A stretch of 64,000 bases of DNA from Caldifarciminota bacterium (lineage in GTDB: Bacteria > Hydrothermota > UBA3073), in assembly GCA_030606335.1 (NCBI GenBank), contig JAUWGP010000005.1, forward strand, positions 1 through 64,000, read 5' to 3'. Within the stretch, counting starts at the first letter, position 1; each line of letters starts with the position of its first letter. Under the pieces are notes generated by a model that saw only the letters and a list, made by a program, of their open reading frames with translations, did no database searches and was not told the DNA's origin. The position numbers and the translations under genes are program-made. Positions 5,281 to 56,289 of the stretch are shown one piece after another.

Positions 5281-5309
5281 ATTATAATGTTAAATGTGAG
5301 AGAAGTCAA
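5281..5309 (-). promoter_or_regulatory. Sigma-70-type promoter of the 5146-1688 gene run
   Basis: On the minus strand TTGACT (5304-5309), 17 bp, TATAAT (5281-5286). It points at the DUF3788-like gene 135 bp downstream and probably serves the GalT/HIT-like, methyltransferase and nucleotidyltransferase genes. Confidence 0.8.
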
Positions 5310-5361
5310 GAAAAAATTATACAAATTGCATTTTTCTTAATAGGGGAATAAAAAATAAAGG

Positions 5362-5670
5362 ATGAGATTGCCACGCTCACTCCGTTCGCTCGCAATGACA
5401 GACACCCGGGAAGAGATTGCCACGACTTCACTTCGTTCAGTCTCGCAATGACAGGCACTCTGGAAGAGATTGCCACGCCTTCACTTCGTTCAGTCTCGCA
5501 ATGACATACTGTTGGGATGAGATTGCCACGCCTTCACTTCGTTCAGTCTCGCAATGACATACTGTTGGGATGAGATTGCCACGCCTTCACTTCGTTCAGT
5601 CTCGCAATGACGGAGGACAATGTTTGTCATTGCGAGGAGTGAGAAGGACGAAGCAATCCCTTTTTGGAGA
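5362..5670. repeat. Tandem array of 53-bp interspersed repeat (left flank of integron)
   Basis: About five units begin GAGATTGCCACG and end CTCGCAATGACA, with period 53 bp where regular (starts near 5466, 5519, 5572); the last part at 5626-5670 is an inverted half-unit. Each unit carries the complementary ends ATTGC/GCAAT. The same family recurs at 12958-13255, 46965-47165, 55752-55815 and 55998-56210. Spacers between palindromes are themselves repeated, so it is not CRISPR. Confidence 0.85.
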
Positions 5671-7488: not shown

Positions 7489-7517
7489 ATTGACCTCCTT
7501 ACATTATTTTAATTTTT

Positions 7518-7524
7518 GTCTAAC
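7518..7524 (-). other. attI-like core site A (GTTAGAC)
   Basis: GTTAGAC fits the GTTRRRY recombination core. It lies between the intI remnant and the first cassette and is not followed by a paired attC structure, so it is read as attI. The identical flank ACCTAT precedes core B at 12477. Confidence 0.65.
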
Positions 7525-7863
7525 ATAGGTTTATCTGGACTAATGAAATAACAATAACAGCTAATGTTAGCCGTATAAATCCTCTCTCAATTATTCATTT
7601 TATCTAATTACTCTCTTAATTAATAAGCAATTAGATATAAGATATTTAAAAACTCGTGTTCTTATACGGCTTAAATATGGCATATAAAGTGAAATTAATT
7701 TATATCTACTGGAATAGTAGGTAGCAAATGAATGTCTGAAGGTATGACAACTTACCTGTTTTACAATACCTGCCTTTTTTATTGCTTGCTTTATTTCCTT
7801 TGCAAAACTGTCTCATAAATATGATGTCTACGTTTAATACCGGTTCGATGGTCTGTTGATATT
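7518..7863. repeat. Long direct repeat, copy A (attI plus 3' end of intI)
   Basis: About 346 bp align with 12477-12824, with scattered substitutions and small indels across attI-like sequence and the intI 3' end. By eye more than four fifths of positions agree. The copies diverge at both ends, so this is a duplicated integron platform rather than a simple insertion sequence. Confidence 0.85.
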
Positions 7864-12313: not shown

Positions 12314-12476
12314 GGTAAAACTCCTTTTGTTAATAAATAAAATATGTTTAATGTTATCCAAGAAAGTCTACTAATAATCAATGTAATTAACTTAAATTGC
12401 TTAAAAAATAAAATTTAAGATCCTATAATGAACATATGACTATTTATGAACTGTTTTTTACACAAATTTTAGTAGT

Positions 12477-12483
12477 GCCTAAC
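12477..12483 (-). other. attI-like core site B (GTTAGGC)
   Basis: GTTAGGC matches GTTRRRY exactly and is preceded by ACCTAT as at core A. It lies directly upstream of the lipoprotein cassette and downstream of the intI remnant. Confidence 0.7.
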
Positions 12484-12824
12484 ATAGGTTTATCCGTACT
12501 AATAAATTAACAATCACAGCTAAAATTAACCGTATAACACTCTCTCTTACTTATCTTTTTATTTTATAACTCTCTTAACTTGTAAGTATTTAGATATAAG
12601 ATATTTAAAAAACTAGTGTTCTTATACGGCTTAAATATGGCATATAAAGTGAAATAAAATTATATCTGCTGGGCTAGTAGGTAGCGAATGAATGTCTGAA
12701 AATATGACAACTTGCATGTTTTACAATTCCTGTCTTTTTTATTGCTTGCTTTACTACCTTTTGCAAAACTGTCTCATAAATATGATGTCTACGTTTAATA
12801 CCGGTTCGAGGGTCTGTTGATATT
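12477..12824. repeat. Long direct repeat, copy B
   Basis: Counterpart of 7518-7863. The best conserved block is the intI coding part; the attI-proximal part is more diverged. Confidence 0.85.
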
Positions 12825-12847: not shown

Positions 12848-12902
12848 TACGGAGCCATATATACAGGCACGTGAAAGGCAGGATATAAAGTCAGTTTCTA
12901 TA

Positions 12903-12931
12903 ATTATACAACAAAAAACCGATTTTGTCAA
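12903..12931 (-). promoter_or_regulatory. Consensus promoter upstream of intI remnant B
   Basis: Minus strand TTGACA (12926-12931), 17 bp, TATAAT (12903-12908): a perfect match. It probably now transcribes the cassettes, since the intI remnant is on the same strand. Confidence 0.8.
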
Positions 12932-12957
12932 GGAAAAATCAGAAATCCCTATGGGTA

Positions 12958-13255
12958 AAAATGATATAAGGGAAGAGGTTGCCACGTTCATTTCATTCAC
13001 TCGCAATGACGGACACTCTGGATGAGATTGCCACGCCTTTACTTCGTTCAGTCTCGCAATGACAGACACTCGGGAAAAGATTGCCACGACTTCACTTCGT
13101 TCAGACTCACAATGACGGACACTCGGGAAGAGATTGCCACGACTTCACTTCGTTCAGACTCGCAATGACGGACACTCGGGAAGAGATTGCTTCGTCCGTC
13201 CAGAAAAACGACGGACTCGCAATGACGGACACTCTGGATGAGATTATCATATAAT
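12958..13255. repeat. Tandem array of the 53-bp interspersed repeat (right flank of integron)
   Basis: About six degenerate units of the family at 5362-5670 lie in the same orientation, each with GAGATTGCCACG and CTCGCAATGAC ends and a variable GACACTCGGGAA linker. Confidence 0.85.
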
Positions 13256-25737: not shown

Positions 25738-25982
25738 GGAGTGAAATCAATTAACAATGTAAAATTAGCAATTAGCAATGCAAAATTGAGGGGAATAGAG
25801 AAGAGCGTAGAGTGTAGTGCGTAAGGCGTAGTGCGCAAAGAAGAGTGAAGAGAGAAGAGCGTCCCGATAGAATAGCTGCGCATTCTACGGGATAAATAAA
25901 GCGTAGAGTATGAAGTAATCGGTGATAAGGTTAACTTAGTTATAAAAAGGTAATAGCGCAAGAAAAGCAAAAAGAACTAAAT
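25738..25982. repeat. Repetitive intergenic segment
   Basis: It contains AATTAGCAATTAGCAATGC-like direct repeats (also at 47714-47752 and inside wecB) and purine-rich GAAGAGTGAAGAGAG and GTAGTGCGTAAGGCGTAG runs. No gene. Confidence 0.6.
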
Positions 25983-27167: not shown

Positions 27168-27548
27168 AGCGTAGGGCGTAGGAGCGACTTCCCAGTCGCG
27201 ATAGAAGAAACATTAAATGTTAGATGTTGAATGTTAAATGTTTTATGTTGAATGGAATAAGAGTTAATTAGTTGAAAAGTTAATTGGTTGATTAGGTTGA
27301 ATGTTACATGTTTAATGTTAAATGTTTGATGTTGAATGTGAAATGTTGAATGTGAAATGTTGAATGTGAAATGACGAATGTGAAATGTTGAATGTTAGAT
27401 GTTGAATGTTAAATGTTGAATGTTAGATGTTGAATGTTAAATGTTTTATGTTGAATGGAATAAGAGTTAATTAGTTGATTAGTTGAATAGTAAATTATGA
27501 AAAGATGTTATGACTCTATGACCCTAAGACTCTATTTATAAACTAGAT
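27168..27548. repeat. Minisatellite of TGTTGAATGTTAAA-like units
   Basis: A copy of a 30-bp palindromic element at 27178-27207 is followed by roughly fifteen degenerate 13-15-bp units of the type ATGTTGAATGTTAAA/GA, then GTTGATTAGTTGAATAG runs. No coding potential. The same unit appears briefly at 60375-60415. Confidence 0.8.
27178..27207. repeat. 30-bp interspersed element
   Basis: Identical to 47672-47701; it begins 8 bp after the stop of the GT4 gene at 25983-27167, whose final codons lie in related repeat sequence. Confidence 0.85.
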
Positions 27549-42644: not shown

Positions 42645-45600
42645 ATGATTTTTGGATCTATAATGTATAAAAGTAGAACAACATTAATAATTGTTTTGTT
42701 ATATCCATTATTACATACTATATCGCTTTTTGGTGCTACGTGGACTCAGTCTGTATGGGCGATTCCTGAGAATGTTTTTTTCGAGGATACAACGTTCTAC
42801 CTCATATCCAGGAACATTAATTCCATTCATGATTATTCCTGTTTAACCCTTTCAATATCAACAACTTTACAGGTGCTACAGATGGGTCAAAATATCAATA
42901 TAAGGGATTTTGAGCGTGTTCAGGACACTCTGATTTACTTGTGCACAGGCGATGATTCTGTATGTGTTTACAAATCATCAGATGAGGGCGACTCCTGGCA
43001 AAGGGTTTTTTCATATGACGGTTGGCAATCGGCGTATTCAATGTTATGGGATAATGATACATATTTATATCTTGGCATTGAACATACTACTTTGCCTGAT
43101 GGATATTTGAAGAGGTCGGGTGATATGGGTTATACCTGGCCAGGTAGTAGTGCCATGGTGGGTGTCGAAAAGATCCATAGTATATTGAGGATGAATGATT
43201 TGATATATGCGGGAGGTGGAGACAGTGTAGCAATAGTATATACTGGGAGTATGGACAATTGGATGGAAAACTATTTTGATGATAATGCTATACTTGCACT
43301 ATACTCTTTTTCTGACACACTCATATTAGCCTGCACAGGTTATGAAAATGGTTTAGTTTATAAGTCTAATGATAATGGAAATACATGGATAGAGTGTAGT
43401 GATCTACCCGGTGCGAAGTCAGTTTTTTGTCTTTCTATAGGTGGAGATTCAGCCGTATATGCCGGTACAGATACAAGCGGAATTGTATACAAAACCATAG
43501 ATACAGGAGATACATGGGCTGAATGTGGTGATTTACCATTTGCTGAGAAAGTCCGCTCACTGATATTTATCCCTGAAAATTCAGTGCTTATAGCTGGATG
43601 TGAGTGTGTTGATGATACAGCAAGAGCCTATATTTCAATGGATAATGGTACATCCTGGATTCCATTTGGTACTTTACCAGGTGCCTTATCTACATACTGT
43701 TTACTCTATACTTATCACAGTTCACTCCTTGCAGGAACAGACTTTGATGGTGCTATCTTCAGAATGGTCGGTTTTGACTCAACTGGATGGCTTATCTCAT
43801 CTCTATATAACACCAGGGTAGATAATGGTAGTACTCAATTCGGGATAATGTCCTGGAATGCGGAAGAAAACGAGCAGCAGATAATATTACGAGTTAGAAC
43901 ATTTCCACCAGGAATTGATTCTATCACGCTTGACTCCCTTGCACAAGATACACTGTGGTTGGACTGTGATACAATTGTAAATGGGCAGGACATATCAGAT
44001 ATAGGTTCAGTGAATGATGGTGACCAGTTTATCCAATACAGGATTGACCTGCTTACCGATGATCCTTATCATACACCTATATTTGAAGAGATAGAAATTG
44101 AGTATTTTTCTGATACTATAGGTGCGCATCTCACAGGTGCTATAGCATATGGTGGAGAAATTTTTGAGGGAGATAGTGTAGCACCCAATGATAGGATTGT
44201 AATTTCCTTTGATGAACCAACCAATCTTTTTATTCCTGATGCAAATAATATAGATTCAATACTGAAACTCTCCTCTGATCATACTTGGCTGGATAGTATG
44301 GGTTATCTTGGAACGATCAATTGGACTTTAGATAGTGTGATTATGACCATATATCTTGGTGGTGCAATATGGAATAATATGGTTGCACCTGGTGATACTA
44401 TATTTTTACAGCCTATTGGTATTGGAGATAAATGGTTAAATTATGATACCTCTTCGTGTATTATTACAGGAACATTTGCTCCCTTCATCGATTCTATTGT
44501 TGCATATGAGTATATTGATTCCATTGAAGGAATTGACAATGATGATTATGTGATGCTTTACTTTTCCAAGCGAACAAATATGCCTGATATTGGGGATTCT
44601 CTTATCGACAGTATACTTGCTGTAAAATCAGGAGATTCAAACAAGACCTGGTTATCTGGAGATGGAAACATTAGAGCAATCCACTGGGATTCCATTGGTT
44701 TTACCCTCACCTGCTCGTTATGTGTTGATGGAGGAAAACCTACAATCTCTACAGGAGATTCTGTGTTTCCTGATGGAGAAACAATAAGGGATAAATTCAA
44801 TAAATACCCGGTATTATCTCCATGTGTTATAACAGGAGATTTTGGAGACTATGGACCAGTAATAGATTCAGTACTCGCCTTCTTTGATTCAATTCCTTTA
44901 CAACCCTATGATGATGACTGGGTGATTCTATTTTTCAATGAAGAGACAAATGTACCAGATTTAGATGCCTTAAATATAGATGATGTACTCAGTCTTTCAG
45001 GAGGAAATTCCTGGAATATAGATTCTTCCTATTTTGTAAATACCTGTTGGTCACTTGACAGTACAATTTTATTGGTAAACTGGTGGGAAATAGGCATAGA
45101 GGACACGGTCAGTCGACAGTTACCAATTACCAGTTACCTATATCAGAACTTTCCCAATCCGTTTTTATTCAATACAGTGATTATTTATGCAATTGGTTGT
45201 AAGCAGTATAAAGTAAGAAGGAGTGAAGGTTTAGGGATCCCTTCTTCAAACTTGACTCTTCACTCCTCACTTCTTTCTTCTCCGGTTGCTGTTGGTGATA
45301 CCATATATCCTGATTCCATTACCATTCAGGACTTAAAGGGACACCCCTGTGTGAAACCAGCAGTTATAAGAAGTGCCTATGGGAAGAAGGCAAGCAGTGT
45401 AAGGCGAGAATTTAACTTTATGGAATATGGTGATGATGCACTAAACTGCGATATTCTACTCACTACTCACTACTCACCATTTATCCCGTTGAATAAGTTT
45501 ACTATTCCATCGGGACTTACTACCTCCATCTTTATATATGACCTTGCAGGAAGGCTTGTTAGAAGGTTAGTTGATTCACCACATTCTCCTGGAATATATA

Positions 45601-45719
45601 GAGTAGAGTGGGATGGTAAAGATGATGAAGGTAACAATGTGAGAAACGGTATCTATTTCTACTGTCTTGAGATAGATGGCAGGATAATCAGAAAGATAAA
45701 AATGGTAAAAGTCCATTAG
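42645..45719 (+). CDS. Secreted BNR-like/beta-repeat protein with FlgD-like C-terminal domain
   Basis: The 1024-residue product has a signal sequence within the first 35 residues (a start at 42663 is equally possible). Residues about 100-390 contain several SxDxGxTW BNR-type repeats (SSDEGDSWQ, SNDNGNTWI, TIDTGDTWA, SMDNGTSWI). Residues about 490-910 contain three related 120-residue beta domains with the FDEPTN/FSKRTN/FNEETN pattern. The last 70 residues form a FlgD-like Ig domain (IYDLAGRLVRRL... RNGIYFYCLEIDG), which serves as a sorting or anchoring tail in related bacteria. Positions about 45095-45285 and 45420-45500 look like intergenic repeat DNA read in frame, interrupting the third beta domain and splitting the FlgD region. 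Confidence 0.72.
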   Translation: MIFGSIMYKSRTTLIIVLLYPLLHTISLFGATWTQSVWAIPENVFFEDTTFYLISRNINSIHDYSCLTLSISTTLQVLQMGQNINIRDFERVQDTLIYLCTGDDSVCVYKSSDEGDSWQRVFSYDGWQSAYSMLWDNDTYLYLGIEHTTLPDGYLKRSGDMGYTWPGSSAMVGVEKIHSILRMNDLIYAGGGDSVAIVYTGSMDNWMENYFDDNAILALYSFSDTLILACTGYENGLVYKSNDNGNTWIECSDLPGAKSVFCLSIGGDSAVYAGTDTSGIVYKTIDTGDTWAECGDLPFAEKVRSLIFIPENSVLIAGCECVDDTARAYISMDNGTSWIPFGTLPGALSTYCLLYTYHSSLLAGTDFDGAIFRMVGFDSTGWLISSLYNTRVDNGSTQFGIMSWNAEENEQQIILRVRTFPPGIDSITLDSLAQDTLWLDCDTIVNGQDISDIGSVNDGDQFIQYRIDLLTDDPYHTPIFEEIEIEYFSDTIGAHLTGAIAYGGEIFEGDSVAPNDRIVISFDEPTNLFIPDANNIDSILKLSSDHTWLDSMGYLGTINWTLDSVIMTIYLGGAIWNNMVAPGDTIFLQPIGIGDKWLNYDTSSCIITGTFAPFIDSIVAYEYIDSIEGIDNDDYVMLYFSKRTNMPDIGDSLIDSILAVKSGDSNKTWLSGDGNIRAIHWDSIGFTLTCSLCVDGGKPTISTGDSVFPDGETIRDKFNKYPVLSPCVITGDFGDYGPVIDSVLAFFDSIPLQPYDDDWVILFFNEETNVPDLDALNIDDVLSLSGGNSWNIDSSYFVNTCWSLDSTILLVNWWEIGIEDTVSRQLPITSYLYQNFPNPFLFNTVIIYAIGCKQYKVRRSEGLGIPSSNLTLHSSLLSSPVAVGDTIYPDSITIQDLKGHPCVKPAVIRSAYGKKASSVRREFNFMEYGDDALNCDILLTTHYSPFIPLNKFTIPSGLTTSIFIYDLAGRLVRRLVDSPHSPGIYRVEWDGKDDEGNNVRNGIYFYCLEIDGRIIRKIKMVKVH
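45095..45285. repeat. Repeat-like insertion read in frame within the FlgD-tailed protein
   Basis: The segment has CAGTTACCAATTACCAGTTACC-type direct repeats (near 45116-45138) and an inverted pair GAAGGAGTGAAG / CTTCACTCCTC around 45218-45268. Both look like this genome's non-coding repeats. It falls between NWWEIG and VAVGDTIYPD, which are contiguous in the two sibling beta domains. Confidence 0.55.
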
Positions 45720-45752
45720 AAGAAATTAAACGATAACCCTTTAGCTTAAATT

Positions 45753-46898
45753 ATGAAACTATTCCTTGTTGCTGGAGCAAGACCCAATTTTATGAAAATT
45801 GGTCCACTTGTTAAAGAGATGGAAAAGTTTAAGGAAATCAAACCTGTTATTGTCCATACAGGACAGCACTATGATTATGAGATGTCAGCTATTTTCTTTA
45901 AGGATCTTGATATACCGAAGCCACATATATATCTTGGTGTTGGTTCTGGTCTTCATGGTGAACAGACCGGCAAAGTTATGATTGAGATGGAGAAGCAAAT
46001 AATAAAACATAGACCCGATGTGGTAGTGGTAGTCGGTGATGTAAATTCAACACTTGCGACAGCAATCGTGGCATCAAAGTTACATGTTCCTGTTGCCCAT
46101 GTTGAGGCAGGATTAAGGTCATTTGACAAAACCATGCCAGAAGAGACAAACAGAAAAGTAACCGATGTTCTTTCAGAATACCTTTTTACGACAGAAGAAT
46201 CAGGAAATGAAAACCTCAGGAGGGAGGGTGTATTAGATGATAAGATACATTTTGTTGGTAATATAATGATAGAGGCAATAATAAATGCAAAATGTAAAAC
46301 CCAGCCCCGCTTAACGGAGCTGGGTGGGATGCAAAATGTAAAATTATCAATCAATAATCTTCAATCTACAATCTCCAATCTACAATCTCCTTATGCCCTT
46401 CTCACTCTCCACCGCCCATCCAATGTTGATAACAGGGATAATCTTATAAGGATTCTCGATGCTATTGTTGAGATTTCCAGAAGGATTCACCTAATATTTC
46501 CTATGCATCCAAGAACGAGCAAGATGATTAGAGAATTTAAGCTTTTAGAGAAATTAAATTCATTGTATGTAATTAAACCACTTGGTTATCTTGAATTTAT
46601 TGCACTTGAGGAAAGGGCAAAGTTCGTATTAACAGATTCAGGAGGTATGCAGGAGGAAACTACATATTTTGGGATTCCCTGTCTTACGATAAGAGAGAAT
46701 ACAGAGAGGCCTGTCACAATTATCAAGGGAACAAATAAACTCGTTGGAACCAATAAGGAAAAGATAATTGAAGAAAGTTATAAAATCCTCGATGGTTATG
46801 GAAAGAAGGGAAGTATACCACCTCTTTGGGATGGGAAGACAGCAGAGAGGATAGTTGATATATTACTCCATTCGTCGCCAGGATCGAGTGCAGAATAG
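45753..46898 (+). CDS. wecB: Non-hydrolysing UDP-GlcNAc 2-epimerase, with in-frame insertion
   Basis: The 381-residue product has GARPN (8-12), HTGQHYD (35-41), GDVNST (95-100), EAGLRS (118-123) and HRPSNVDN (220-227), plus the C-terminal LTDSGGMQEET. It interconverts UDP-GlcNAc and UDP-ManNAc, supplying a donor for the glycan locus. Family members run straight from the VGNIMIEA strand to YALLTLHRPSN with a short link; here about 34 residues (179-212) are inserted. Their DNA resembles intergenic repeats, including a GC-rich hairpin. Its effect on activity is unknown; the site is a surface loop between domains, so it may be tolerated. Confidence 0.93.
   Translation: MKLFLVAGARPNFMKIGPLVKEMEKFKEIKPVIVHTGQHYDYEMSAIFFKDLDIPKPHIYLGVGSGLHGEQTGKVMIEMEKQIIKHRPDVVVVVGDVNSTLATAIVASKLHVPVAHVEAGLRSFDKTMPEETNRKVTDVLSEYLFTTEESGNENLRREGVLDDKIHFVGNIMIEAIINAKCKTQPRLTELGGMQNVKLSINNLQSTISNLQSPYALLTLHRPSNVDNRDNLIRILDAIVEISRRIHLIFPMHPRTSKMIREFKLLEKLNSLYVIKPLGYLEFIALEERAKFVLTDSGGMQEETTYFGIPCLTIRENTERPVTIIKGTNKLVGTNKEKIIEESYKILDGYGKKGSIPPLWDGKTAERIVDILLHSSPGSSAE
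46287..46388. repeat. Palindrome-containing repeat inserted in frame in wecB
   Basis: Two ATGCAAAATGTAAAA copies flank a CCCAGCCCCG...CGGAGCTGGG hairpin, followed by CAATCTACAATCTCC repeats (46361-46390). The same motifs occur in non-coding DNA at 25749-25785 and 47714-47752. Confidence 0.7.
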
Positions 46899-46964
46899 GC
46901 AAATTTGGAATGCACACCTTTTAATGACATGTAAGGCATTTGTTGTTGCGAGTTCCGAGAGCTA

Positions 46965-47165
46965 TGTGAGCGCTGCAATCTCATACCTGGTATCTGTCAT
47001 TGCGAGTGAATATAATGAGCGCTGCAATCTCATCTTCATTGCTCAATATCATAAAATGCGATTGCTTCGCCTACGGCTCGCAATGACATATGGGAACGAT
47101 TTCTTCGCCTACACGCAGACAGGTGGTTTACACTCCTCGTAATGACATATGGGAACGATTGCTTT
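46965..47165. repeat. Degenerate copies of the 53-bp interspersed repeat
   Basis: GTCATTGCGAG and CTCGCAATGACA halves recur in both orientations, with GAGCGCTGCAATCTCAT variants. Confidence 0.75.
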
Positions 47166-47265
47166 TTACAGTTAGAGCAGGCATTGGCTTGAATAAGAGT
47201 CTAAAAAACCTATTATATTTAATTACCTAAAATTTTTTATGGTAGTGTCAAATAGAATATGAAAG

Positions 47266-47460
47266 TGAAAATGTAGGGGTTCGATTTATCGAACCAGCAA
47301 GGTAAAGCATAAATGTAGGGGTTCGATTTATCGAACCCAAAAGGTAAAGCGCAAATGTAGGGGTTCGATTTATCGAACCAGCAAGGTAAAGTGAAAATGT
47401 AGGGGTTCGATTTATCGAACCCCTAAAAGAAACGGGTCGGATGAATCCAACCCCTACAAG
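47266..47460. repeat. Tandem array of a 42-43-bp unit with GGTTCGATTTATCGAACC palindrome
   Basis: Four copies of TGTAGGGGTTCGATTTATCG plus AACC, each followed by a near-identical AGCAAGGTAAAGCATAAA-type linker. A fifth degenerate palindrome has GGGTCGGATGAATCCAACCC. Linkers are not unique, so this is not CRISPR. Confidence 0.85.
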
Positions 47461-47671
47461 AATCAGGAGGAAAAGTGTAGTGCGTAAGGTGTAGAGAGTG
47501 AAGCGGAGAAACGGAGAGGAGAGAAGAGAGAAGGGAGAATGACCCTGATGAAATAGATACTCATTTCACCATAATGTAATAAAGAGAAACATTACACATG
47601 GCAAGCAGGGTAAACTAATTTCTAATGACTAATGAGAGGATAGGAGTCCGTCGATTGACGGACGATAATGG

Positions 47672-47701
47672 GTAGGAGCGACTTCCCAGTCGCGATAGAA
47701 G
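47672..47701. repeat. 30-bp interspersed element (GGAGCGACTTCCCAGTCGC core)
   Basis: All 30 bases are identical to 27178-27207. The core contains the imperfect palindrome GCGACT...AGTCGC. Confidence 0.85.
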
Positions 47702-47993
47702 AGAAGAGCGACCTCAATTAACAATGTAAAATTAGCGATTAGCAATTCAAAATAGCTTGTGAGGGAAGAGAGAGGAATAGTGATAATTGAATATTGACCC
47801 TGATGAAATAGATACTCATTTCACAGGGTAAACTATTGACTATTGAGGAACACAAATTGGGATGCAATCGTAAATCGACAATCGAAAATAGTAAATTAAA
47901 AGTAGGAGCCCCGCATCTGGCGGGGCGAAGAGGGTGTAGGGTAGGTCTGTGATTAGATTTTTTAACACAACATTTTATTGAAAGGATAGAAAA

Positions 47994-49475
47994 ATGAAAA
48001 AAAAGTTTGCACTTATAAGTACATACAACAAAGATGGTCTAATGCCCCTTGTTGATACATTAATAAAGCACAATTATACATTGATTGCCACTTCTGGCAC
48101 GGCTGATTTTCTTAAAAAGAATGGTTTGGATGTCGTAACAGTGGAAGAAATAACCGGTTTTCCTTCAATGCTCGGTGGCAGGGTTAAAACTCTACACCCT
48201 TTGGTTTTTGGCGGTATTTTAGCAAAAGGGGGGGAAGAGGAAGTCAAAAGATATAATATACCCTTAATTGATATTGTGGTTGTTAATCTCTACCCATTTG
48301 ATAAAGAACCCTCAATAGAAAACATCGATATAGGAGGTATTTCTCTAATAAGAGCAGCAGGAAAGAACTATAGACGTCTAACCTGTTTAACAGATCCAGA
48401 AGATTATGATATGGTAATCAAAGAGCTTAACGAAAATAGTACTATATCACCTGATACAAGGATATATCTTGCAAGGAAGGCCTTCGCGCTATCCACTTGT
48501 TTTGATACAAAGGTCTCTTTATGGCTTGGGAGTCCTGAGCTTTATATGCCTTTTAGTAAAGTAGAAGACCTGAGATATGGCGAGAATCCACATCAGAAAG
48601 CAACACTTTTCAGAGAGACAGGTTACAAAGGAATATCAATTATAGATGCTTATAAAATACAGGGCAAAGAGCTGTCATATAATAATATATGTGACCTTGA
48701 CACCGTTCTCTCAGTATTATGCACTTTTAAAGAAACTACCGCATGTATTTTAAAGCACTCAAGTCCATGTGGTATTGCAGTTTTCCCCAGATTAATAGAT
48801 GCCTACAAAAGGGCGAAGAGTTGTGATCCGATCTCAAGTTTTGGGGGTATTGTTGGCGTTAATCGTGAAGTTAGTGGAGAACTAGCCAAAGAACTATCTT
48901 CAACTTTTATTGAGGCTGTTTTAGCACCGTCCTATAATGAAGAAGCAAAGAATATACTTTCGAAAAAGAAGAGACTTATTTTACTTAAACTTCCATTGGA
49001 TTGTAGTCTATCCACTGTTTCCTATAGATATATCAATGGTGGACTTATAAGACAGGATAGTGATAACAGCCTGGATAATATTAAGGATTATAAGGTTATG
49101 TCAAAAAGAAAACCCACAAAGAGGGAATTAAATGCCATGAATTTTGCGTTTAATGTGGTGAAGTTTATAAAGTCGAATGCTGTATGTATAACAACAGATA
49201 GAATGACTGTAGGTATTGGGGGTGGTCAACCGAACAGGGTGGGTGCCTTAGAGATTGCAATTAGAAACAGGAAAATATTTGGTTTTAAGGATGGGATAGC
49301 ACTTGCCTCAGATGGATTTTTCCCATTCAGGGATTCTATAGACCTTGCTGCAAAAGAGGGTATCAAGGCTATAATTGAGCCTGGAGGTTCGATAAGGGAT
49401 AAAGAGGTGATAAAGGCTGCTGATGAGCACAACATTAGTTTGATATTCACAGGAAGAAGACACTTCAGACACTAA
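47994..49475 (+). CDS. purH: Bifunctional AICAR transformylase / IMP cyclohydrolase
   Basis: The 493-residue product has the IMP cyclohydrolase half at the N-terminus, with an MGS-like fold (ISTYNKDGL, ATSGTADFL) and GGRVKTLHP at 61-69. The transformylase half has RYGENPHQKA near 193, LKHSSPCGIAV near 254 with the Lys-His pair, and VGIGGGQPNRVGA. It performs the last two steps of purine synthesis. Length is close to typical. AAGGA precedes the ATG. It stands alone after a long repeat region, with no other pur gene nearby. Confidence 0.95.
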   Translation: MKKKFALISTYNKDGLMPLVDTLIKHNYTLIATSGTADFLKKNGLDVVTVEEITGFPSMLGGRVKTLHPLVFGGILAKGGEEEVKRYNIPLIDIVVVNLYPFDKEPSIENIDIGGISLIRAAGKNYRRLTCLTDPEDYDMVIKELNENSTISPDTRIYLARKAFALSTCFDTKVSLWLGSPELYMPFSKVEDLRYGENPHQKATLFRETGYKGISIIDAYKIQGKELSYNNICDLDTVLSVLCTFKETTACILKHSSPCGIAVFPRLIDAYKRAKSCDPISSFGGIVGVNREVSGELAKELSSTFIEAVLAPSYNEEAKNILSKKKRLILLKLPLDCSLSTVSYRYINGGLIRQDSDNSLDNIKDYKVMSKRKPTKRELNAMNFAFNVVKFIKSNAVCITTDRMTVGIGGGQPNRVGALEIAIRNRKIFGFKDGIALASDGFFPFRDSIDLAAKEGIKAIIEPGGSIRDKEVIKAADEHNISLIFTGRRHFRH

Positions 49476-49715: not shown

Positions 49716-51836
49716 ATGGACGAGGATATCATAGGAATGATAGATGAATCAATGAAGATTAAAGAGGGGGAAATAATAAAGGGTAAAGTTGTAAAGGTAA
49801 CCGGAGGTGATGTGCTTGTAGATGTTGGTTTGAAATCAGAAGGTATAATACCATCCTCGGAGTTCAAAAAGACTACAGTCCCAGATGTTGGTGATGAGGT
49901 ATTAGTTTTACTTGAAAAGATAGAGAACGACGAAGGTATGGTGGTTCTGTCAAAGGAGAAAGCAGATATAATGCATGTATGGAACACTGTGCGCGAGTCG
50001 TATGAAGCTGGTGGGTATGTAGAAGGTAAAATTGTAAAAACCGTCAAAGGAGGTTTTCAGGTTGATCTTGGTGGTATAAATTCTTTTCTTCCTGGTTCTC
50101 AGGTTGATTTTCAGCCTGTAAGTCCAGAAGATTACATTGGTACTATACATAACTTTAAGATATTGAAACTTTCAGAGGGTAGAAAAAATATAGTTATTTC
50201 AAGAAGGGCAATTCTCGAAGAAGACATGGAGAAAAAACGTGAGGAGACATGGCAAAAGGTTGAAAAGGGAGCTATCCTTGAAGGTAAGGTAAAAAATATT
50301 ACAGATTACGGTGCATTCATAGATTTAGGTGGTGTAGATGGTCTTCTTCATATAGGTGATATAACATGGGGTAGATTGTCTCATGCCTCAGAGGTACTCA
50401 AAATAGGCGATACAGTAAAGGTCCTTGTTCTGGATTGTGATAGAGAACAACAAAGAATTGCACTCGGGAGAAAGCATCTCTCTCCACATCCGTGGGAAGA
50501 TATAGATAAGAAATATAAGGTTGGGTCAATTGTAACAGGTAAGGCTGTATCCATTACAGACTATGGTGCATTTGTTGAATTGGAGCCAGGAGTTGAGGGA
50601 CTTGTTCATATATCCGAATTTTCATGGACACAGAAGGTTCGAAAACCATCTGAGTTTATTTCTCTTGGTGATATAGTTGAAGTGAAGATCCTGAGTGTAG
50701 ATAAAGAACAACAGAGGATGTCGCTGTCTATAAGATCACTGGTAGAAAATCCCTGGGTTGGTGCTACTGAAAGACATCCGGTTGGGTCGAGTGTTAAGGG
50801 AATTATACGTAAATTTACAAACTACGGGGCTTTTGTTGAACTTGAAGATGGTATAGAGGGTCTCCTACACATTAAAGATATTTCATGGACTAAACGGATT
50901 TCACATCCAGCTGATGAACTTAAGTCAGGACAGGAGATAGAATGCAAAGTTCTCTCAATAGATCAGGAGACACATCGGTTATCAGTTGGTTTAAAGCAGA
51001 TAGAAGAGGATCCTCTTAAGAAATTTGTGGAGGAACATGCTATAGGTGATATAATACCAGATGCAATTATAACCAGGGTGCTTGATAAGGGGATTGTAGT
51101 TGATATTGGAGTAGAGGGTTTTGTCCCGTACTCCCAGATGCAGGACCCCCCATCTGAACTTAGACGTCGATATAGTATTGGAGATAAGATTGCAGTAAGA
51201 CTGATTGAGATTAATGAAGAAAAAAGAAGGCTAATATTCTCTCAGTCAGGTTATGAGCCACTTTTAGAAAAAGAAAAAGGAAAACCAAAGATCAAGAGGG
51301 AGGATGAGGAAGAAAAGGTAGCAAAAGAGATGAAGGTAGAGATTGTGGCAGATAAGGAGAAGGAGGTAGAGATTGCGGCAGATAAAGAGAAGGAGGTAGA
51401 GATTGCGGCAGATAAAGAGATGAAGGTTGAGATTGCGGCAGATAAGGAGAAGGTGGTAGAGATTGCGGCAGACAAAGAGAAGGAGGTTGAGATTGTGGCA
51501 GATAAGAAGAAGGTGGGAACAGCTAAAAAGAAAGTTAAAGGCAAGAAAAAGGATAAAGCTAAAGTAAAAAAGGAAGATAGAGATAAGGATGTTAAGAAAG
51601 ATAAGGGGAAGAAGAAGATTATAGGTAAGAAAAGCATCAAGGACAAAGAGGAGGATAAAGAGAAGAAGAAGGTAAAAAAGAAGAAAGTTGATGTCAAAAA
51701 GAAGAAGGATTTGGAAGAGGATAAGAAAACAAAGGGGAGAAAAAAATCAAAAGAGAAAGGAGAAACAGAAGATAAGAAGAAACCAAAGAAGAGTAAAAAG
51801 AAGACAAGTAAGATAAAGGCGAAGAAAAAGGAATAG
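49716..51836 (+). CDS. rpsA: Ribosomal protein S1-like, six S1 domains with lysine-rich repeat tail
   Basis: The 706-residue product has six S1 domains over residues about 15-515. Each has the KGKVVKV... VDVGLKSEG.IP type pattern; domains 3-5 are the best matched (ITDYGAF and GLLHI). From about 525 the tail is almost entirely Lys, Glu and Asp, beginning with six ten-residue EVEIAADKEK-like repeats (30-bp DNA repeats at 51333-51510) and then Lys-rich sequence. S1 binds mRNA on the 30S subunit. The tail is disordered and positively charged, likely giving extra RNA or ribosome contacts. AGGAGG lies seven bases before the ATG. Confidence 0.9.
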   Translation: MDEDIIGMIDESMKIKEGEIIKGKVVKVTGGDVLVDVGLKSEGIIPSSEFKKTTVPDVGDEVLVLLEKIENDEGMVVLSKEKADIMHVWNTVRESYEAGGYVEGKIVKTVKGGFQVDLGGINSFLPGSQVDFQPVSPEDYIGTIHNFKILKLSEGRKNIVISRRAILEEDMEKKREETWQKVEKGAILEGKVKNITDYGAFIDLGGVDGLLHIGDITWGRLSHASEVLKIGDTVKVLVLDCDREQQRIALGRKHLSPHPWEDIDKKYKVGSIVTGKAVSITDYGAFVELEPGVEGLVHISEFSWTQKVRKPSEFISLGDIVEVKILSVDKEQQRMSLSIRSLVENPWVGATERHPVGSSVKGIIRKFTNYGAFVELEDGIEGLLHIKDISWTKRISHPADELKSGQEIECKVLSIDQETHRLSVGLKQIEEDPLKKFVEEHAIGDIIPDAIITRVLDKGIVVDIGVEGFVPYSQMQDPPSELRRRYSIGDKIAVRLIEINEEKRRLIFSQSGYEPLLEKEKGKPKIKREDEEEKVAKEMKVEIVADKEKEVEIAADKEKEVEIAADKEMKVEIAADKEKVVEIAADKEKEVEIVADKKKVGTAKKKVKGKKKDKAKVKKEDRDKDVKKDKGKKKIIGKKSIKDKEEDKEKKKVKKKKVDVKKKKDLEEDKKTKGRKKSKEKGETEDKKKPKKSKKKTSKIKAKKKE
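51333..51510. repeat. 30-bp in-frame coding repeats in rpsA tail
   Basis: Six near-identical units encode EVEIAADKEK variants, so the number of units could vary by slippage without breaking the frame. Confidence 0.85.
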
Positions 51837-55635: not shown

Positions 55636-56289
55636 AAAACCCCCAGATAGTAAAATTAAAAATCAAATATCAAATATCAAAAATTAGACGTTGTCCTAAA
55701 GTGTTGTGATGATAGATAATATGAAACCTTTTATTGTGTGCTATAGCGTTGTAATCTCATCCCTTTTTGTCTGTCATTGCGAGCGAACGCAGTAAGCGTG
55801 GCAATCTCATCCTTTAATATCATTACTACATATTGTAAGAACTTCTGGGCAATAAAGCTCTTATCTACCCCGCCAAAGGTGTGCAGACAGATTGATTTGA
55901 AAATTATTGATATCCAATATATATGGCTTTAACGCTATCACGAAACTTTGGGACATTCTCAAAAATTAAACAATTTCCCATAGTTACGCGATACGGATCT
56001 GGTCGGTCATTGCGAATCCGTCCACGGACTCGTCAAAAGGATCTCATAAGAGTCCACGACATGAGGACATAAGCTCCGTATCCATACGGATCTTGAGATG
56101 GATACGGATGAAGCAATCGCTTTTTAGTGAATTATATAAAATATGAGATTGCCACGTTCATCCCCCAATTCCTAAAAGAATGGGGCTTCACTCGCAATGA
56201 CAGGCATCCTCTTGTATATCATTAAGATAGTTTGGAACATTTAAAAAATTAAATATCATACATGAAAGATATAGATTAGTTATTCTTTT
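55636..56289. repeat. Non-coding region with 53-bp-family repeats
   Basis: Copies at 55752-55815 and 55998-56210 carry GTCATTGCGAGC and CTCGCAATGACA ends and GCGTGGCAATCTCATCC linkers. One part, 56030-56100, includes an inverted ATCCGTATCCATACGGAT palindrome. No gene is seen. Confidence 0.75.

Follow-up and report, generated by a model that had tools for sequence, protein, structure and literature searches.

The wecB gene of a WOR-3 bacterium carries a linker built from repetitive DNA in two layers differing in age, an array of 7-bp units and a younger 30-bp palindrome nested within it (about 46285–46393 of the window, by which we mean the whole 64,000-nucleotide stretch analysed). Our preferred reading, to which we assign a probability of roughly 0.78, is that this segment is neutral repeat DNA that came to occupy a tolerant loop in two steps, its translation yielding a disordered spacer; no function is needed to explain the insert. 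A first-pass annotation had described an insert in wecB that keeps the frame, bears a palindrome and derives from repeats, and this description held, as the gene is intact and relatives show empty and filled sites. What it took to be one insertion is a real insert but is better read as two nested events, an older family-wide array and a younger genus-specific palindrome.

An intact epimerase gene with a repeat-built linker

The wecB gene (45753–46898, plus strand) encodes a 381-aa non-hydrolysing UDP-GlcNAc 2-epimerase in an intact frame, as previously claimed. In profile searches, TIGR00236 covers the entire protein at 338.6 bits against a cut-off of 210 and PF02350 scores 362 bits, and the family-invariant residues are retained. 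Foldseek matches of the AlphaFold model in the PDB are WecB and related epimerases. The model is confident (mean pLDDT 88.7) except at residues 186–202, where pLDDT is below 50, and at the last four residues, and the insert is predicted to form a disordered loop between the two domains. In this protein 39 residues separate the blocks VGNIMIE and YALLTLHRP, where other WecBs have about 24. A same-genus genome also encodes a second WecB (G001:C140:283-1359), with 55% identity to the one studied here, which is apparently missing from the window's own genome.

Read along the plus strand, the segment is made up of two ATGYAAA units, the palindrome ACCCAGCCCCGCTTAACGGAGCTGGGTGGG, two more ATGYAAA units, a short junction and a run of AATCTNC units. 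The left units (ATGCAAA-ATGTAAA) occupy 46285–46299, and the palindrome follows at 46299–46328 (or equally 46300–46329), contributing 10 codons. The right units (ATGCAAA-ATGTAAA-ATT) lie at 46329–46345, and the second array, at 46346–46393, encodes NLQSTISNLQS; 24 of 28 positions there agree at lag 7, which was reached in 0 of 20,000 shuffles. The palindrome's arms (46299–46309 and 46315–46325) form a 27-bp stem-loop spanning 46299–46325, and with short flanks this hairpin folds at z = −3.5, a fold equalled by 0 of 200 shuffles. A search of Rfam returned nothing at E ≤ 1 in 45600–48000.

Empty and filled sites in related genomes

All genomes compared are draft MAGs. Two belong to the window's genus, namely the window's own WOR-3 MAG (G000, in which the window is contig C49) and the WOR-3 isolate RS_17_14 (G001, JAGMCL01), and three to its sister genus (G002, G003 and G004). 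In all five family genomes checked, a degenerate 7-bp array (ATGYAAA, AATCTNC) replaces the usual linker of about 24 residues, while the next relative, G012 (locus L007), and other aligned WecBs have an ordinary linker and no array. The extra 30 bp occur at this site only in G000 and G001, between ATGYAAA units 2 and 3 and with the 7-bp phase preserved on both sides. G002, G003 and G004 have a clean empty site of four uninterrupted ATGYAAA-type units, so that the alignment with close relatives proposed by the first-pass annotation finds the sister genus without the palindrome. The G001 protein is 97% identical to the window's WecB and has the insert at the identical position with six codon differences within it; this second insert is of the same length but repeat-built, and it changes faster than the rest of the gene, so that the conserved, non-repeat insert named by the first-pass annotation as a refutation is not what this relative shows.

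Because the array is found in the family and the palindrome at this site only in the window's genus, the array is the older layer. Insertion within this genus is the parsimonious direction, and precise loss from the sister genus is less likely, since a deletion between the 15-bp direct repeats that bracket the hairpin (46285–46299 and 46329–46343) would leave one copy of the repeat, not two. We considered these 15-bp repeats as a target-site duplication and rejected that reading, as the same array units already stand in the empty site. The empty/filled alignment likewise revealed no duplication around the palindrome, of the kind expected of a MITE, beyond the pre-existing array units, and no target-site duplication pointing to any transposase. 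In the preferred two-step reading, the genus's ancestor would have acquired a 30-bp palindrome from a small family-specific repeat family, placed exactly between two 7-mers; the frame was kept because 30 bp is a multiple of three, and the protein probably tolerated the addition because the linker is predicted to be disordered. The site thus offers a clean empty/filled pair for the entry of a palindrome into a conserved enzyme gene.

A small palindrome family

Pattern search and a covariance model agree on eight copies of the palindrome in four genomes (one in G000, two in G001, three in G002 and two in G003), with none in 17 other genomes and none found outside the WOR-3 family. Within G000, the wecB hairpin has no second copy at up to three mismatches or by the covariance model. 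The family is tiny, and the wecB copy is its only member well inside a recognised gene, the others being intergenic or near ORF ends. A comparison of indels between G000 and G001, whose sampled contigs overlapped by just 37 kb, showed no further palindrome insertion in recognised genes, and it is one empty/filled comparison that suggests the palindrome to be mobile. All eight copies have in common an A-rich sequence on their left and one resembling YGGGRTG on their right, and because these flanks are shared, the likeness of the element's ends to the array may have guided its insertion. Covariation was dropped as support for the palindrome after RNAalifold on the eight copies favoured a shifted stem and found no compensatory changes.

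One alternative, which we consider unlikely, would make the palindrome a miniature transposon of the REP type that a RAYT (Y1 tyrosine) transposase mobilises and that lands preferentially at heptamer arrays. Every family member does have Y1_Tnp genes (five matches in G000), and GTAG-tagged hairpins are common: of 45 such hairpins, 17 are no more than 30 bp from a heptamer array, where random intergenic points gave 3.1 expected and a maximum of 9 in 500 draws. In the window, such a hairpin is followed by ATGTTAA-type arrays at 27178–27457 (plus strand), an intergenic example of a palindrome beside an array, and a GTAG hairpin adjoins two Y1_Tnp genes of the sister genus. The wecB palindrome itself, however, has no GTAG next to its stem on either strand; in the flanks as read, neither GTAG nor CGTC stands at the stem ends of any of the eight copies, and the covariance model placed no copy alongside any of the Y1_Tnp genes found.

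Heptamer arrays across the genome

For the older layer, we propose that in the ancestor of the WOR-3 family, and by a mechanism that we infer, the ordinary inter-domain linker gave way to repeated 7-bp units free of stop codons, an array of the class also found at many intergenic sites. A scan for fixed-lag matches in 714 kb of G000 (about 29% of this genome) recovered 83 tracts at lag 7; lags 8 and 9 yielded 17 and 10, and lags 4–6 and 10–13 gave 0–1. G001 and G002 have comparable array densities and the small f5 sample a higher one, while samples of other WOR-3 families contain few arrays or none; heptamer arrays also occur at some Bacteroidales, Cloacimonadota and Desulfobacterales loci. 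With ORFs called mechanically, 17 of 114 arrays fell within ORFs of at least 150 aa that cover 81% of bases (binomial p about 1e-51), and at least one strand was free of stops in 13 of the 17 arrays in ORFs versus 44 of 97 outside (p = 0.03). Since arrays are so strongly depleted in genes, copies that broke the frame or struck structured parts were presumably lost.

Two intergenic copies of the AATGTAAAATTA/AATGCAAAAT motifs (repeat families D17 and D18) lie on the plus strand at 25739–25786, where the hairpin is absent, and at 47706–47753. The first-pass annotation had linked the insert to repeats at 25749 and 47714, and the link stands for the heptamer motif but not for the hairpin, which has no other copy in G000; the likeness of the wecB segment to 25756–25779 (83% over 24 nt) and to 47723–47746 is confined to the A-rich 7-mers. 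That the wecB array arose instead by local slippage in this gene alone, unconnected to the genome-wide arrays, strikes us as improbable. An A-rich linker could give rise to degenerate A-rich 7-mers and no donor copy was identified, yet dozens of arrays in G000 and unrelated genes have period 7 in common, and this points to one shared process.

In-frame arrays in other conserved genes

In-frame arrays are also present in LepA (TIGR01393, 864 bits), a NuoL-like membrane subunit, an AddA/RecB-like helicase and a GltD-NuoG-like fusion. Across five species, the NuoL-like loop is built from four different units (GTCGAAA, ATCAAAA, ATCCGAA and ATCAAAT), with none in G011; LepA orthologues use either GTCAAAA or ATCAAAA, and the AddA-like helicase of G001 is longer than that of G000 by one 19-aa unit. 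Replication slippage and unequal recombination probably lengthen and shorten the arrays and switch their units, because the same loops bear units that are uniform within each array but differ between species. As some loops differ in their 7-mer unit between sister species, the rate and mechanism of in-gene array turnover become measurable. In the GltD-NuoG-like fusion, the array is conserved between genera, and some arrays could therefore be kept for function.

The AddB-like gene of G002 contains CCTGCCTGCCGGTAGGCAGG (folding z = −5.0) with ATCAAAA units on both sides, and its relatives have unrelated inserts in that loop; the palindrome is a second case, independent of the one in wecB, of such an element among heptamers in a gene. 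A GC-rich segment between heptamers in the G003 LepA was considered as another such palindrome and rejected, as its fold (z = −0.4) is no better than that of shuffles. These loops could be landing pads in a stronger sense, with an active process writing or rewriting 7-bp arrays at fixed loops of LepA, NuoL-like, AddAB-like and WecB proteins and palindromes then inserting specifically between 7-mers, to yield recurrent heptamer-palindrome-heptamer cassettes that diversify protein loops; we regard this as speculative and doubtful.

Two further observations concern neighbouring and related loci. A Y1_Tnp-domain gene directly adjoins the NuoL-like gene in three genomes (G000:C17:1565-1819, G001:C142:15670-15921 and G004:C55:2089-2343). 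In C-terminal sorting-type domains (YPNPF...IYDLSGRL), heptamer arrays of the GTTATCA/ATTACCG type, sometimes in opposed orientations, recur in one loop (ORF C-termini L102, L121, L124, L128, L132 and L135).

Change within the insert and the question of function

Between G000 and G001, codons differ at 6 of 33 positions inside the wecB insert and at 11 of 348 elsewhere (Fisher p = 0.0017), and amino acids change at 4 of 33 codons in the insert versus 6 of 348 outside. This excess of amino-acid changes speaks against co-option of the loop, in which repeat-encoded residues or an RNA hairpin would serve regulation (as an antisense terminator or through translation pausing) or protein contacts. 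Two species do keep the insert, and the minus strand has an intrinsic-terminator-like site by score, formed by the palindrome and the TTTACATTTT that follows it; 1.1 such sites are expected by chance, however, so that one is unremarkable, the insert is predicted to be disordered, and the sister genus manages without the palindrome. We consider co-option very unlikely. An assembly or binning error is less credible still, even for a window derived from a MAG, given that the independent MAG JAGMCL01 has the insert with its own substitutions and that three other MAGs share one empty site.

Relation to known intragenic repeats

The palindromic elements of Rickettsia and Wolbachia (RPEs; Ogata 2000, as described in PMC3767692) form named families of 100–150 bp that lie in frame in conserved genes, where they are translated and tolerated, and different elements can occupy the same gene site across species (PMC3767692). 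The first-pass annotation had drawn an analogy to these elements in an unrelated group, and as an analogy it is sound: the wecB palindrome forms a stable stem-loop (z = −3.5) in frame in a conserved gene, and different inserts occupy the same gene loop in different species. Unlike RPEs, it measures 30 bp rather than 100–150 bp, the array around it is older and separate, and it is not high-copy, with one copy in G000 and eight over four genomes; its nesting in a heptamer array, in WOR-3, sets it further apart from RPEs as described. The wecB element behaves like a Rickettsia palindromic element, yet it is not one.

The setting is also less isolated than a comparison with Rickettsia implied, as intragenic palindromes are known beyond that genus. 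REPs tagged with GTAG/CGTC, palindromes of 20–40 bp, occur inside ORFs of several species, often in replication or repair genes (PMC3733652). The 27-bp wecB stem-loop falls in this size class and a repair gene (AddB-like) is affected here too, but its family is very small, has neither the GTAG nor the CGTC tag and has no copy beside the Y1_Tnp genes found. Heptameric simple repeats of Nostoc and Xanthomonas are dispersed, some of them intragenic, and depleted in coding regions (PMC4692102), and dispersed 7-bp arrays, sometimes in genes, are known as the heptanucleotide elements of Geobacter (PMC2700814). The WOR-3 arrays are likewise tandem, dispersed and depleted in genes. The Nostoc and Xanthomonas heptamers, in which one unit dominates, are rich in G and have the potential to form quadruplexes (PMC4692102), whereas the WOR-3 units are A+T-rich and many, with a nested palindrome.

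Intragenic REPs and intragenic heptamers have thus each been published before. In open papers we found no description of the nested heptamer-palindrome combination with ordered steps in WOR-3, a weak indication of novelty, and searches by title and abstract returned no relevant literature on tandem or palindromic repeats in WOR-3. The invasion of coding loops by repeats, for which Rickettsia is the best-known case, here takes a layered route in an uncultured phylum, and several conserved genes of these bacteria offer a natural record of repetitive DNA settling in working genes. For annotators, they are a warning against taking such loops, which derive from repeats, for domains.

Further repeats in the window and its relatives

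Several other repeats were recorded. A 30-bp coding repeat (GGCAGATAAGGAGAAGGAGGTAGAGATTGC) lies at 51287–51526 in a 707-aa ORF, where G001 has 90 bp less than G000, and at 47262–47427 a 42-bp unit with the hairpin GTAGGGGTTCGATTTATCGAACC is repeated four times in tandem, part of this array being absent from G001. Palindromic repeats of the form GTCATTGCGAG...GCAATCTCATC are dispersed over 5287–5632, 12898–13243, 46970–47034 and 55768–55816, in part as 53-bp tandem arrays. The segments 7499–7863 and 12458–12824, 4.96 kb apart, are 80–98% alike depending on the stretch compared. Finally, a 26-bp perfect palindrome, CCCCGCACCTATGCATAGGTGCGGGG, is nearly unchanged across two genera (L105:18591, L126:11575, L158:7233, L168:724 and L144:177).
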